From Myxococcus xanthus (GTDB taxonomy: Bacteria > Myxococcota > Myxococcia > Myxococcales > Myxococcaceae): a stretch of 64,000 nucleotides of DNA. The translations under genes were made by a program, and so were the position numbers. Below the pieces are notes generated by a model, which searched no databases, was not told where the DNA came from, and was given only the letters and a program-made list of their open reading frames with translations. The stretch is taken from NCBI RefSeq assembly GCF_006402735.1, contig NZ_CP017174.1:2173001-2237000 (forward strand), in the 5' to 3' direction. Positions 50,586 to 55,385 of this stretch are shown here, one piece after another. The number at the start of each line of letters is the position of its first letter. The first letter of the stretch is position 1.

Positions 50586-53500
50586 TCAGTTCTGCAGGTC
50601 GTAGATTTCGTCCTCGATGTCCTTCTTGTCGGTCGCGTCCGGTTTGCGGGAGAGGTAGTCCTTGAAGGCCTGCACGGCCTCCCGGCGCTTGTTGCGCTCC
50701 TTATAGGCGAAGCCCAGGTAGTAGTAGGCCATGGGATTCTCCGAATCGAGGCTGGTGGCCTTGCGGTACCAGTCGATGGCCTTGGCGTGCTGGGCCTGCT
50801 CGGTGAAGGCGCGGGCCACCTTGTAATAGACGTAGGTGAGCTTGGGGTCCGCCTTCAGGGCCGACTGGTACCGCTTGATGGCGTCGTTCCAGCGCGCGGC
50901 GGCGAAGTACGCATCACCAATGGAGCCCAGCACCCGCGTGCGGCGGGGGTCTGCCTTGAGGCTGGCCTCGAACGAGGTGATGGCCTCGTCGAACTGGCTG
51001 CCCTCCAGCAGCGCATGACCGAGCGCCTCGTGGGCGTCTGCGTGGGTGCCATCCAGTTCCACCGTCTTGCGCCACGCGCTCATGGCGTCCGGCAGGTTCT
51101 TCGCGTCCCGCAGGATGACGCCGTAGGCGTAGTGGTAGTCGGGGCGGTTGGGGGCCCGCTCCACGGCCTTGCGCATGTTGTCCAGCGCCTGGGTGAACTC
51201 CAGCCGCTTCGCCTTCACCAGCGCCAGGTAGTAGAGCGCCTCGTGGTTGGAGGGCTCGTTGCTCAGCGCGAGGCCCAGGTTGCTCTCCGCGCCCGGCAAA
51301 TCGCCCCGCTCCAGCAGCACGGCGCCCAGCGTAATCGGGATGGTGGTGGAGCGCGGGTCCTCCGTCTTGGCCTTCTCCAGCTCCGCCACGGCCTCTTCCA
51401 ACTGCCCCAGGCGCCACAGCACGAGCCCGCGCTGCAGCCGGCCGTCCTTCAACAGGTGCGGGTCCAACTCCAGGGCGCGGTTGGCCTCCGCCTTCGCCGT
51501 CTCCAGGTCGTCCGTCAGCAGGGCCACGCGGGACAGGCCCAGGTGGGCGTCCGCCAGGATGGGGTCGAGCTTCACGGAGCGCTCGAACTCCTGCTGGGCC
51601 AGCAGCGTGTTGTTTTCCGCCAGGGCCAGCTCGCCGAGGCCCGCGCGCACGCCCGCGTTCTCCGGTGCCTTCTTCGCCGCCTCCTCGAGCTGAGGCCGCG
51701 CCTCCGCGTTGCGGCGCTGGGCCAGGTAGAAGCGGCCCAGGTAGAGGCGGGCCTCCACCAGGTTGTCGTCCGCGGCGATGGCGCGCTTGTAGTGGCCCTC
51801 CGCGTCGGAGAGGTTGTCGAGCGCGTCCTCGATGCGCCCGTAGAGGTAGGCGATGCGCGCCTCGTTGGGGAACACGCCGTTGGCCTTCTTCACGGCCTCC
51901 AGCGCGTCCTGCATCTTCCCGGTCATCACCAGCGCGGTGATGTGGCCGTCCGCGAACTCCAGGTTGTTGGGCTCCTCGGTCGCCAGCGCCTTGTAGATGG
52001 GCAGGGCGCCCTCGAAGTTGCGCTGAGCGCGCAGCACCCGCGCCAGCTGGCCCCGGAGGAAGGTGGACTTCGCGTCCATCTCCAGGGCGGCCTTGAGCTC
52101 GGCCTCGGCCTCCTTCGGCTGGTGCTTCTGGAACATCGCCACGCCCTTGAGGCCGCGGGCGCGCGCCAGCTCCGCGGGGCCCAGCGCGGACTGGACGTCC
52201 TCGGCCAGCGCCCGCTCAACGGCCTCCGTGCCCTTTGCCACGTCCTTGCGGACCAGCAACTCCACCGCGGCCAGCTCCACCGCGGAGGCCACGTGCTTCG
52301 GGTCTGCTTCCAGGGCCGCGGCATAGGCGGCGGCGGCTTCGTCGGCGCGGTCGGCGGCCTGGTGCAGGTTGCCCACGGCGTGGTGGGCCTTGGCGGACTT
52401 GGGGTTCTTCGCCAGCACCTTGTTCAGCGTGTCCAGGGCGCGCTTCTCGTCGCGCTTCTGCGAGTAGGCCTCGGCCAGCAGGAAGGCCAACTCCAGGTCG
52501 CCCTGGGTATCCTCGCGGCCGTAGGCGCCGCTCAGGGGGGGGATGACCGAGTCCGCCTGCCGGGAGGTGAGCGCGATCGCCGCGGACGCCTTGATGACGT
52601 CCACGTCCTTCTCTCCCAGGAACTCGATGTCCGCCATGTCCTGACGGCAGCGGCTCATCTCGTTCGGATTGCCCGCGGCGTAGCGGCGCTGGAGGTAGTA
52701 GACGGACTGGCACCACAGCGAGCGCACCTCCGGGTACTCCTTCTGCGCGAGCACCTTGGCGCTGAGCTCGCGGGCCTGCTTGTAGCTGGCGAAGGTGTCC
52801 GTGAGCAGCGCCTGCTTCGCGTCCGCCACCTGCTTCGCCTCGGCTGAGCCGTCGGAGAGGCGGGTGGGGAAGAGGGCGCGGCGGCCGAAGGCACCGTAGC
52901 GCGTGCCGAACTCAGTGCCCGCGCCGATGCCCGCCACCACCACCGCGACACCCGCGGCAATCATCAGCGGGACGCGCTTCTTCCACTTCTCCGTGTTGCC
53001 GCTGCGGTCCACCACGGACACCGCGGCCATGCGGCCTTCATAGAGCTGCTCCAGCCGCTTCATGTTGGCCTGCGGGCTGGCGCCGTCCACGCGGGGCGCG
53101 TCGATGACGGCCGCCGCGGGCGCCGCGGTGGGCGTCACCAGCTTGGCGGGGCCTTCCATCAGCCGCTGGATGGCGGCGGCGAAGGTGGGCACCGTGCCGA
53201 TGGCGGACCAGGTCTCCGAGTCCAGCGACACGTCCTCGTTCCCGAGGAGCTGCCCGTCCTCGAGCATCTTGACGATGACGCCCTCGTCGAACGGGCCGAA
53301 CACCTTGCCCGAGCGCCGGCGGACGTGGAAACGGCGCACCTTGGTGCCCGCCTGGGCGCCGCCGTCCTTACCCGCGGCGTCGTCGATGAAGGACAGCATC
53401 TCCAGGCCGTCCGCGGGGCCCGCGTTGGGCGGCGGCGGCAGCGGGTCGGAGAGGTCCGCTTCCAGGTCGTCATCCGGCCGGGCGGTCGGGTCGAACTCGA

Positions 53501-55385
53501 GCGAGTCCGGGATGCCGGGCGAAGAAGGCGCGCCGAAGTCCACGTCACCGAAGTCCACGGCCGGGTTGACGGCGACGGCTGGCGCGGGGGCCGGAGGCTC
53601 CGAGAAGTCGATGGCGAACGGGTCCGCACCAGGCGCTGGCGCGGAGCCGAAATCGGCAGCGAACGGATCCGCCGCGGGGGCCGGTGGGGTGCTGAAGTCG
53701 ACGGCGAACGGGTCCGCACCGGGCGCGGGCGGCTCGTTGAAGTCGAACGACAGGTCCGGTGCGGCGGGGGCCGGCAGGTCCGCGAACTCGAGGGTCTGGG
53801 GCGCGGCGGGCGCGGGCAGGTCGGAGAAGTCCGCTCCCGGAGGGGGCAGTGCGAACGGATCGGCGTTCGCGGGGACGGGCAGTTCGCCGAAGTCGAAGGA
53901 CGGCGCTCCCGCTGCGGGCGGAGGCATCGCGTAGGGCGAGGCCTCGGGCGCGGACGGCATCTCGTACGCGTCCGGCGCGAAGGCGTCCGTCTGGGGCGCC
54001 ATGTCCGGCGGAGGCAGGGCGAACGGGTCGTCCACCGGGGCGGCCGGCTGCGCGTAGGCCGCAGGGGGCGGCAGGGCGAAGGGGTCTTCCTGGGGCGGCT
54101 GGGCCTGGGCGGCACCGCTGGAGGATTCGATGTCGAAGGCGAACGCGTCCTCGGCGGGCGGAGCCTCGACGGGAACGGGCAGGGCGTCATCGGCGAAATC
54201 GAAGTCCCTGGCGGTGCTTGCGGGCGCGTTCACGCCGTAGCCCTGTGCGGCGTCCTCGACGGGGGCTTCGACGGTCTCGAAGTCGAAGTCGCGCGCCGTT
54301 CCCGCGGGTTCATTCACGCCGTAGCCCGACGCCGGAGCGGCGGGCGGCTCGCGGTAGGCGTCGCTCGGCAGCGGAATGGAGACGACGCGCGTCACCTCGC
54401 GGGTGTCCCGGACCGGCTCGCCAAAGTCGTCGCCGAACGCGTCCATGTCGGACGGGCCACCTGCCTGCGGCATGGCCGCGGCGGCCTCCGCGGGCGAGCT
54501 CATGTCGAAGGCGAAGGCGTCCTCTTCGGGCGCGGCGCCCGGGAGGGGCATGGCGGCCTGTTCGGGCTCGCTCATGTCGAAGCCGAACGGGTCGGCCTCG
54601 GGAGCGCTTCCCGGCAGCGGGACGCTGGCGGCCTGTTCGGGCTCGCTCATGTCGAAGGCGAACGGGTCGGCCTCCGGGGCACCTCCCGGCAACGGGATGG
54701 CGGCGGCCTGTTCGGGCTCGCCCATGTCGAAGGCGAACGGGTCGGCCTCCGGGGCACCTCCCGGCAGGGGAATGGCGGTGGGCTGAGGCGCGCCCGCGCC
54801 GGGCAGGGGAATGGCGGCGGCGTGGGGCGCGGCGCTGAACGCCTCGGGAGCGCCCGGCAGCGGAATGGCTGCGGACGGTGCGGACGCGGCACCGGGCAAC
54901 GGGATGGCGGCGGCTTGCGCGGACGCGGCACCGGGCAGCGGGATGGCGCCCGTGGACGCGGGAGCGCCAGGGAGCGGAATCGCGGCGGAGTGGGTCGGCG
55001 CGGCGCCCGGCAGCGGGATGGCACCCGCGGACGCGGGGGCGCCAGGGAGCGGAATGGCTGCGGACGCGGGGGCGCCAGGGAGCGGAATGGCTGCGGACTG
55101 CGCGGATGCGGCACCGGGCAACGGGATGGCGGCGGCTTGCGCGGACGCGGCACCGGGCAGCGGGATGGCGGCGGTCAGGGGCGCGGCGGACGTGGCACCC
55201 GGCAGCGGGATGGCGGTGGCCTGTGCGGGCTCGGCGGGAGCAGGCGCCGAGGGCGCGCTCACTGCTTCGAGCTTGATGGGGAAGGTGGTCTGGCACCGGG
55301 CGCACTTGAGCTTCGCGCCGCCCGGCGGGATCCGCTTGTCATCGATGTTGTAGTTCGTCTGGCAAGACGGGCAGGAGACTTTCAT
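50586..55385 (-). CDS. Zinc-ribbon / GYF-like / TM / TPR megaprotein with IPLPG repeats
   Basis: 1,599 residues from ATG 55385. An MJ0042-type zinc ribbon opens it ([28 protein letters not shown]; Cys5, 8, 28, 31). About 15 AIPLPGA-type repeats follow, then several EADPFAFDM(S/G)EPEQA repeats and a long region of PPAPxADPFAxDF-like repeats. A GYF_2-like domain ([39 protein letters not shown]) precedes a single TM helix ([19 protein letters not shown]). The C-terminal about 700 residues are TPRs ([60 protein letters not shown]). ZnR plus GYF plus TM is the layout of the gliding protein GltJ/AgmX, but here TPRs replace the TonB-like end. Confidence 0.8.

Follow-up and report, generated by a model that had tools for sequence, protein, structure and literature searches.

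Here we describe a gene for a multidomain membrane protein in a 64,000-nucleotide stretch of Myxococcus xanthus DNA (contig NZ_CP017174.1, positions 2,173,001 to 2,237,000 of the forward strand; hereafter referred to as the window), which belongs to a genome assembled as one contig of 9.32 Mb. The gene lies on the minus strand at 50586..55385, with its ATG at 55385 and its stop codon ending at 50586, and encodes 1,599 residues that are conserved in relatives; residues 684–958 are matched in 50 of 61 relatives' genomes. The frame stays open upstream to 55592 (1,668 codons from a TTG), and the zinc ribbon starts at the ATG at 55385. The GC content by codon position in the 1,599-codon open frame is 0.73/0.52/0.91. 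From the N to the C terminus, the protein consists of a zinc ribbon, a long linker, a GYF domain, one predicted transmembrane helix and a solenoid of tetratricopeptide repeats (TPRs), which confirms the 1,599-residue architecture proposed in a first-pass annotation of the window. In our analysis, the protein appears to resemble Bd0075 of Bdellovibrio bacteriovorus more than a second gliding-motility switch.

The zinc ribbon (residues 1–36, CPSC...CARC; 55278..55385, minus strand) is of the Zn_ribbon_4/MJ0042 type and scores 63.8 bits against Pfam Zn_ribbon_4 (cut-off 30.3). Its sequence matches in the PDB include 2nb9 (1.2e-5), which we take to be the zinc ribbon of Caulobacter ZitP, and the GltJ zinc ribbon 7zok (1.9e-5). 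An N-terminal MJ0042-type ribbon is common to 2nb9 and the window protein, the comparison being one of the ribbons. Five more proteins of the same genome exceed the Zn_ribbon_4 cut-off, the true GltJ among them. The Pro/Ala-rich linker (residues 41–683) contains 13 IPLPG motifs, located within residues 59–234 (54684..55211, minus strand). Upstream of the GYF domain, the broader pattern [IVLFA]PLPG occurs 14 times, compared with 0.04 times in shuffled sequences, and 26 of the 31 nearer sequences, which include truncated ones, have at least one such motif. Directly before the GYF domain, a short motif, L-E-x-L-x-F-x-D (residues 661–668; 53382..53405, minus strand), is nearly invariant overall, its L, E, L and F being invariant in the 18 sequences of alignment A1.

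The GYF domain (residues 685–744; 53154..53333, minus strand) was identified from an AF2 model compared by Foldseek and VIA-align. The model has a pLDDT of about 95 across these residues, and the first Foldseek row is 7z3c, the GYF structure of GltJ (E 0.05, probability 0.97), so that the comparison with GltJ suggested by the first-pass annotation returns a matching fold. Nine of the first ten rows are GYF-domain chains, the remaining one being a TOC–TIC chain. No row reaches E 0.001, and in VIA-align the TOC–TIC chain 7vcf_Q (Z 6.2) is on a par with 7z3c (Z 6.1, root mean square deviation 4.0 over 73 residues). At the sequence level the domain is weakly marked in the window protein alone, which scores 13.5 bits against PF14237 (cut-off 25.8); a 150-residue segment of the protein spanning the domain matches no family at E ≤ 0.05. 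Likewise, an hhalign comparison of the family's GYF segment with that of GltJ gave no support (probability 2, E 0.025), a PDB sequence search with the segment returned only one ribosomal row (E 0.8), and a PDB search with the profile of alignment A2 gave no row at E ≤ 10. Across the family, 27 of 42 members match GYF_2 at E ≤ 0.05, the best at 8e-06. Ile704 and Met707 occupy positions 8 and 11 of the GYF motif. Position 11 is methionine in all 42 members of alignment A2 and, by reading of the sequences, in 17 of 18 deep members, and position 8 is isoleucine in 31 and valine in 11 of the 42. The genome's remaining five GYF_2 proteins have L, L, H, K and L at position 11.

A predicted transmembrane helix at about residues 805–825 (52911..52973, minus strand) emerges from hydropathy across 73 rows of sequence (68 distinct, many close), in which the most hydrophobic 21-residue segment has a mean Kyte–Doolittle value of 2.05. 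Lysine and arginine are more numerous at the N-terminal flank of the helix than at the other flank in 65 rows, fewer in three and equal in five. The remainder of the protein is a TPR solenoid (residues 848–1598; 50589..52844, minus strand), recognized by Pfam (TPR_2, E 3.8e-42) and by structure prediction: the model comprises 43 helices (about 21 hairpins) with a mean pLDDT of 93.1, arranged in a TPR superhelix, and the best 50 of 1,691 Foldseek rows hold helical-repeat proteins such as CTR9, IFT-A, OGT and designed TPRs. The predicted topology, which the charge bias of the flanks favours, places the TPR part in the periplasm and the N-terminal half in the cytosol. Of the periplasmic TPR solenoid named in the first-pass annotation, the solenoid itself is thus borne out, and its periplasmic site is one that we infer. 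A pair of TPR cysteines was also considered as disulphide evidence for the periplasm and failed, C892 being present in 15 of 31 sequences and C913 in 11 of 31.

The protein is an ancient, mostly single-copy, phylum-wide Myxococcota family. A profile reaching from the L-E-x-L-x-F-x-D motif into the first TPRs (alignment A1; threshold E ≤ 1e-6) matches in 134 of the 156 Myxococcota genomes searched, all at least 90% complete, with one match in 119 of the 134 and two or three in 15, often pieces or frames of about 800 residues. No match was obtained in 22 of the 156 genomes; among the 20 listed, eight are smaller than 3 Mb, with sizes of up to 8 Mb among the rest. Of the 31 nearer loci, 23 show the zinc ribbon, and in the remaining eight the frame runs off a contig end. 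In 20 deep loci the A1 model finds the frame in 18, and 16 of these have the zinc ribbon; of the two frames without a full ribbon, one has lost its last cysteine (L222) and the other is cut by a contig edge (L228). The length from the motif to the end of the protein is 915–983 residues in 51 of 56 loci, the other five being cut by contig ends. The seryl-tRNA synthetase gene serS (49159..50502, minus strand), which lies 83 bp downstream on the same strand, is a common neighbour in relatives. It follows the gene on the same strand in 18 of the 31 nearer loci (as the next frame in 16; contig ends truncate several of the 13 others) and in seven of the 20 deep loci, where the frame ends are at most 40 bp apart in six. 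The position of serS is taken by an OEP-family gene in two loci of Anaeromyxobacter's family. The domain order, predicted folds, conservation and serS linkage were computed directly. Among public records, that of Myxococcus xanthus AM003 has a closely related locus (98% identity over 304 residues), and another, under the label Comamonas sp. KCTC 72670, has a Myxococcus-type locus (L081, 83% identical), so that its label is probably wrong.

The available text on Bd0075 describes a GYF domain in residues 1–83, with isoleucine and methionine at motif positions 8 and 11, respectively, followed by a transmembrane helix and TPRs at residues 193–965 (PMC12034629). As far as that description extends, both proteins have a GYF domain with Ile8/Met11 that is assigned to the cytosol, one transmembrane helix and a TPR part predicted to lie outside the cytosol, and the TPR parts are 767 (residues 833–1599) and 773 (residues 193–965) residues long in the window protein and Bd0075, respectively. 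The same text reports that Bd0075 binds Bd0474, a protein with two FHA domains, a transmembrane helix and TPRs, in a bacterial two-hybrid assay, chiefly through its C-terminal TPR part, with an ipTM of 0.619 for the modelled complex (PMC12034629). According to the accessible part of a second study, Bd0075::tn mutants neither attach to nor kill Escherichia coli and complementation restores killing, and Bd0474 lies in the tadC operon, its Bd0474::tn mutants attaching and failing to kill (PMC6561027). With moderate confidence, we place the window protein among inner-membrane adaptors of the Bd0075 type, as an ancient Myxococcota form that is mostly single-copy. The identity with most support would be a transenvelope adaptor like Bd0075 to which a zinc ribbon and a long linker, with IPLPG motifs in this lineage, have been added. 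Literature searches combining zinc ribbon, GYF, GltJ and TPR returned no title on a family with the order zinc ribbon, GYF, transmembrane helix and TPR, and no paper was found that mentions MXAN_1934–1939, the tags that the gene would probably carry, judging by gene order relative to mglB (MXAN_1926).

A possible mechanism follows this layout, with the topology, the relation to Bd0075, the adaptor function and the partners being what we infer. The cytosolic N-terminal half, comprising the zinc ribbon, the long linker, the L-E-x-L-x-F-x-D motif and the GYF domain, would recruit cytosolic partners, and the GYF domain may bind proline-rich peptides, perhaps the protein's own IPLPG repeats in this lineage. 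The single helix would span the inner membrane, and the approximately 21 TPR hairpins would serve as a scaffold in the periplasm on which partner proteins of a surface machine dock. If the two-hybrid pair of Bd0075 and Bd0474 is taken as a guide, one partner in Myxococcus may be a 740-residue protein with two FHA domains, encoded at the kilD position of the Kil (Kil/Tad) prey-killing cluster in the same genome. This protein has a hydrophobic helix at about residues 295–315, and its gene comes after prepilin peptidase, secretin and FHA-ATPase genes and before a DNA polymerase I gene; since it comes after the FHA-ATPase gene, it fits the published position of kilD. There, in the available text, kilD is the last gene of Kil cluster 1 and needed for killing, and KilD is recruited to prey contacts (PMC8460266). 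The genome has 46 FHA matches, of which the 30 with loci were inspected, for hydrophobic helices only.

Several observations weigh against this account of a Bd0075-type adaptor with a Kil partner. Homology to Bd0075 was judged from its published description, and the residues of the Bd0075 interface match the window protein at only two of 14 positions at the expected offset of 634, the best of 490 offsets giving five of 14 (offset 497; indels ignored in both cases). Neither a zinc ribbon nor a long IPLPG linker is reported for Bd0075 in the available text of its description, whereas the window protein has both. Net charge is alike on the two sides of the helix, and in at least eight of the 134 matching genomes the match spans the transmembrane/TPR part only, possibly marking a paralogue. 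Five of the 31 nearer sequences, some of them cut, and 10 of the 18 deep sequences lack IPLPG-type motifs (the other eight deep ones have them), so that self-binding by the GYF domain cannot be general. On the partner side, the TPR match of the kilD-position protein is weak and falls below the cut-off (22.8 versus 27 bits), and KilD is called a predicted cytoplasmic protein in the accessible part of the Kil study (PMC8460266), whereas the candidate here has a hydrophobic helix. Bd0075 and Bd0474 themselves do not act only together, because Bd0474::tn mutants attach and Bd0075::tn mutants do not. Finally, co-occurrence is loose: among the 156 genomes, 85 have both a window-type protein and a kilD-like gene, 49 the window-type protein only, three the kilD-like gene only and 19 neither, the kilD-like search being a single-sequence query that may miss distant copies.

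One alternative is a housekeeping role. The protein would then be an envelope scaffold for cell-wall or outer-membrane biogenesis or protein quality control, co-expressed with serS, and the link to Bdellovibrio predation would be indirect. Such a role is consistent with the broad retention of the gene across the phylum, mostly as one match per genome, with the old gene pair that it forms with serS, and with its presence in Anaeromyxobacter, which is not known to be a predator. It sits less easily with the 22 genomes in which the protein went undetected, not all of them small, or with the two loci of Anaeromyxobacter's family in which the OEP-family gene replaces serS, and the combination of zinc ribbon and GYF domain in the cytosolic half would speak for an adaptor that is regulated. 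Taken together, we consider a housekeeping scaffold rather unlikely.

A second alternative places the protein within the Kil/Tad contact-killing machine, where the TPRs in the periplasm would bind KilD and the cytosolic half would link prey contact to Kil assembly. The two-hybrid interaction of Bd0075 with Bd0474, mainly through the TPR part, the requirement for Bd0075 in attachment and killing, the place of Bd0474 in the tadC operon and the recruitment of KilD to prey contacts, all as given in the available texts, argue for it, as does the protein encoded at the kilD position here, with its two FHA domains and hydrophobic helix. The phyletic coupling argues the other way: three genomes with the kilD-like part lack the window-type protein (G136, G137 and G039) and 49 show the reverse, and in a search for KilF in 16 genomes, six of the eight from Anaeromyxobacter's family gave only a match without the FHA part and two gave none. 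Moreover, the window gene and the kilD-position gene are 1.4 Mb apart, and the Bd0075 and Bd0474 mutants differ, in the accessible report, in their attachment phenotype. In our assessment, this alternative is unlikely. The loose coupling and the KilF pattern suggest that the ancestral role was wider than Kil, or that Kil is one of several clients. Kil as a candidate partner of the Bd0075-type adaptor is the specific hypothesis most worth testing. In its fullest form, the phylum-wide adaptor would carry a cytosolic signal, through the zinc ribbon and GYF domain and, in many members, IPLPG repeats that the GYF domain could read, to periplasmic TPR–TPR docking with KilD-type FHA proteins, coupling cell state or prey contact to the assembly of contact-dependent killing pili in Myxococcota and Bdellovibrionota; this proposal is speculative and, as a whole, quite improbable. 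The phyletic patterns of MglA and of the kilD-like gene did not separate the hypotheses.

The gliding-motility protein GltJ (also AgmX; PDB 7zok and 7z3c) has an N-terminal zinc ribbon, a GYF fold and a single transmembrane helix in the same order as the window protein, and the GltJ-like order noted in the first-pass annotation is real, with a GYF fold resembling that of GltJ. The true GltJ is encoded elsewhere in the genome (L010) and scores 919.5 bits against the NCBIfam model gliding_GltJ (NF033761), whereas the window protein scores 16.2 bits (equivalog cut-off 450), through residues 1–55 alone. GltJ further differs in having V8/L11 in its GYF domain, the linker motif EEDEIGAVFDQVLSSG, and an AgmX/PglI tail where the window protein has TPRs. 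In a study of the GltJ–MglA switch, MglA reportedly binds a motif beside the zinc ribbon and not the ribbon itself. The linker motif is invariant in 16 of 30 GltJ loci, the readable ones, and is presumably effector-binding, with MglA as its putative ligand. It was not found in the window protein (best score 15, shuffled mean 16.6), and two other GYF proteins of the genome likewise lack it. The AgmX/PglI tail (NF033768, cut-off 40 bits) is not among the best 25 rows for the last 200 residues, down to 22.6 bits, and the C terminus is made of TPR helices. In the zinc ribbon, the window protein is identical to GltJ at 14 of 38 positions and to each of the paralogues L009 and L011 at 15 of 38, whereas GltJ and the paralogue L012 share 19 of 38. 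The window protein is thus rejected as a GltJ member by its score, its C terminus and its linker, and the parallel with GltJ is fair at the module level.

GltI (AgmK; L077), here named by length and position, was also rejected as the same protein. Its gene adjoins gltJ, and at 4,132 residues it is far longer than the window protein, with no zinc ribbon in the part of the frame inspected or in the genome zinc-ribbon search. The lengths here of GltJ (674 residues) and the GltI-like frame equal those given for M. xanthus in the available part of PMC3169522, in whose table GltI/AgmK is TPR-rich and has no transmembrane helix. Two further proteins share with the window protein an N-terminal zinc ribbon and a hydrophobic helix and are shorter, neither being among the genome's five GYF_2 matches: a 945-residue protein with TPRs, a hydrophobic stretch between ribbon and repeats, and no GYF domain detected (L013:3859–6696, plus strand, about 3.385 Mb), and one of about 770 residues with T-Q-T-F-G repeats in its linker, followed by a hydrophobic stretch (L011, about 3950–6265, plus strand, and L078; about 4.085 Mb). 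A second GltJ-like protein, of 577 residues with a zinc ribbon, a GYF domain and an AgmX/PglI tail, is encoded at about 7.167 Mb (L012:3198–4931, minus strand), and a 657-codon frame at about 3.180 Mb (L174) has a GYF domain and, by eye, a GltJ-like layout without a zinc ribbon.

The mglA-like (35996–36583) and mglB-like (36595–37074) genes of the window end 13.5 kb from the stop codon of the 1,599-residue gene, in agreement with the distance of about 13 kb in the first-pass annotation. Beside them, three tandem genes on the plus strand (37272–42783) encode carboxypeptidase-regulatory repeats, a FecR-domain protein and a protein kinase. The GYF–transmembrane part lies about 12–20 kb from mglA in all 12 Myxococcaceae genomes examined, and 296 kb to more than 1 Mb away in four genomes of Anaeromyxobacter's family that consist of a single contig each (G046, G080, G081 and G055, the match in G055 spanning only the transmembrane/TPR part). 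In the remaining six of the 22 genomes, the gene and mglA are on different contigs and thus uninformative on linkage. Proximity to mgl was rejected as functional evidence, the linkage being kept, among these genomes, in Myxococcaceae only. MglA was found in all 22 tested genomes that match the protein family and also in 16 of the 20 genomes examined in which the family went undetected; the four genomes without MglA are all smaller than 2 Mb. GltJ is listed among the MglA effectors in the available text of PMC12288465. The first-pass annotation had suggested that the window protein could be a second MglA-responsive adaptor. On such a reading, the zinc ribbon and GYF domain would sense MglA-GTP, either at the pole or at focal adhesions, with periplasmic TPRs in place of the GltJ tail. 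The domain order and GYF fold common with a known MglA effector, and the presence of MglA wherever the family occurs in the tested set, are consistent with this suggestion, whereas the failed GltJ model, the missing linker motif and tail, the lower ribbon identity, the reduction of mgl linkage to family-level synteny, the phylum-wide spread of the protein and the 16 genomes with MglA alone leave it unsupported and, in our view, highly doubtful.

Elsewhere in the window, a frame of ambiguous strand lies between a GT2 gene and an acyltransferase gene (57662–58672), with related frames in relatives.

These findings indicate that several myxobacterial envelope proteins carry the module of zinc ribbon and GYF domain, which by itself is no sign of control by MglA. 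The available text of the Kil study supposes an upstream signalling cascade without identifying it (PMC8460266). A conserved membrane adaptor that resembles Bd0075 would be a gene to test for this missing upstream signalling of Kil.

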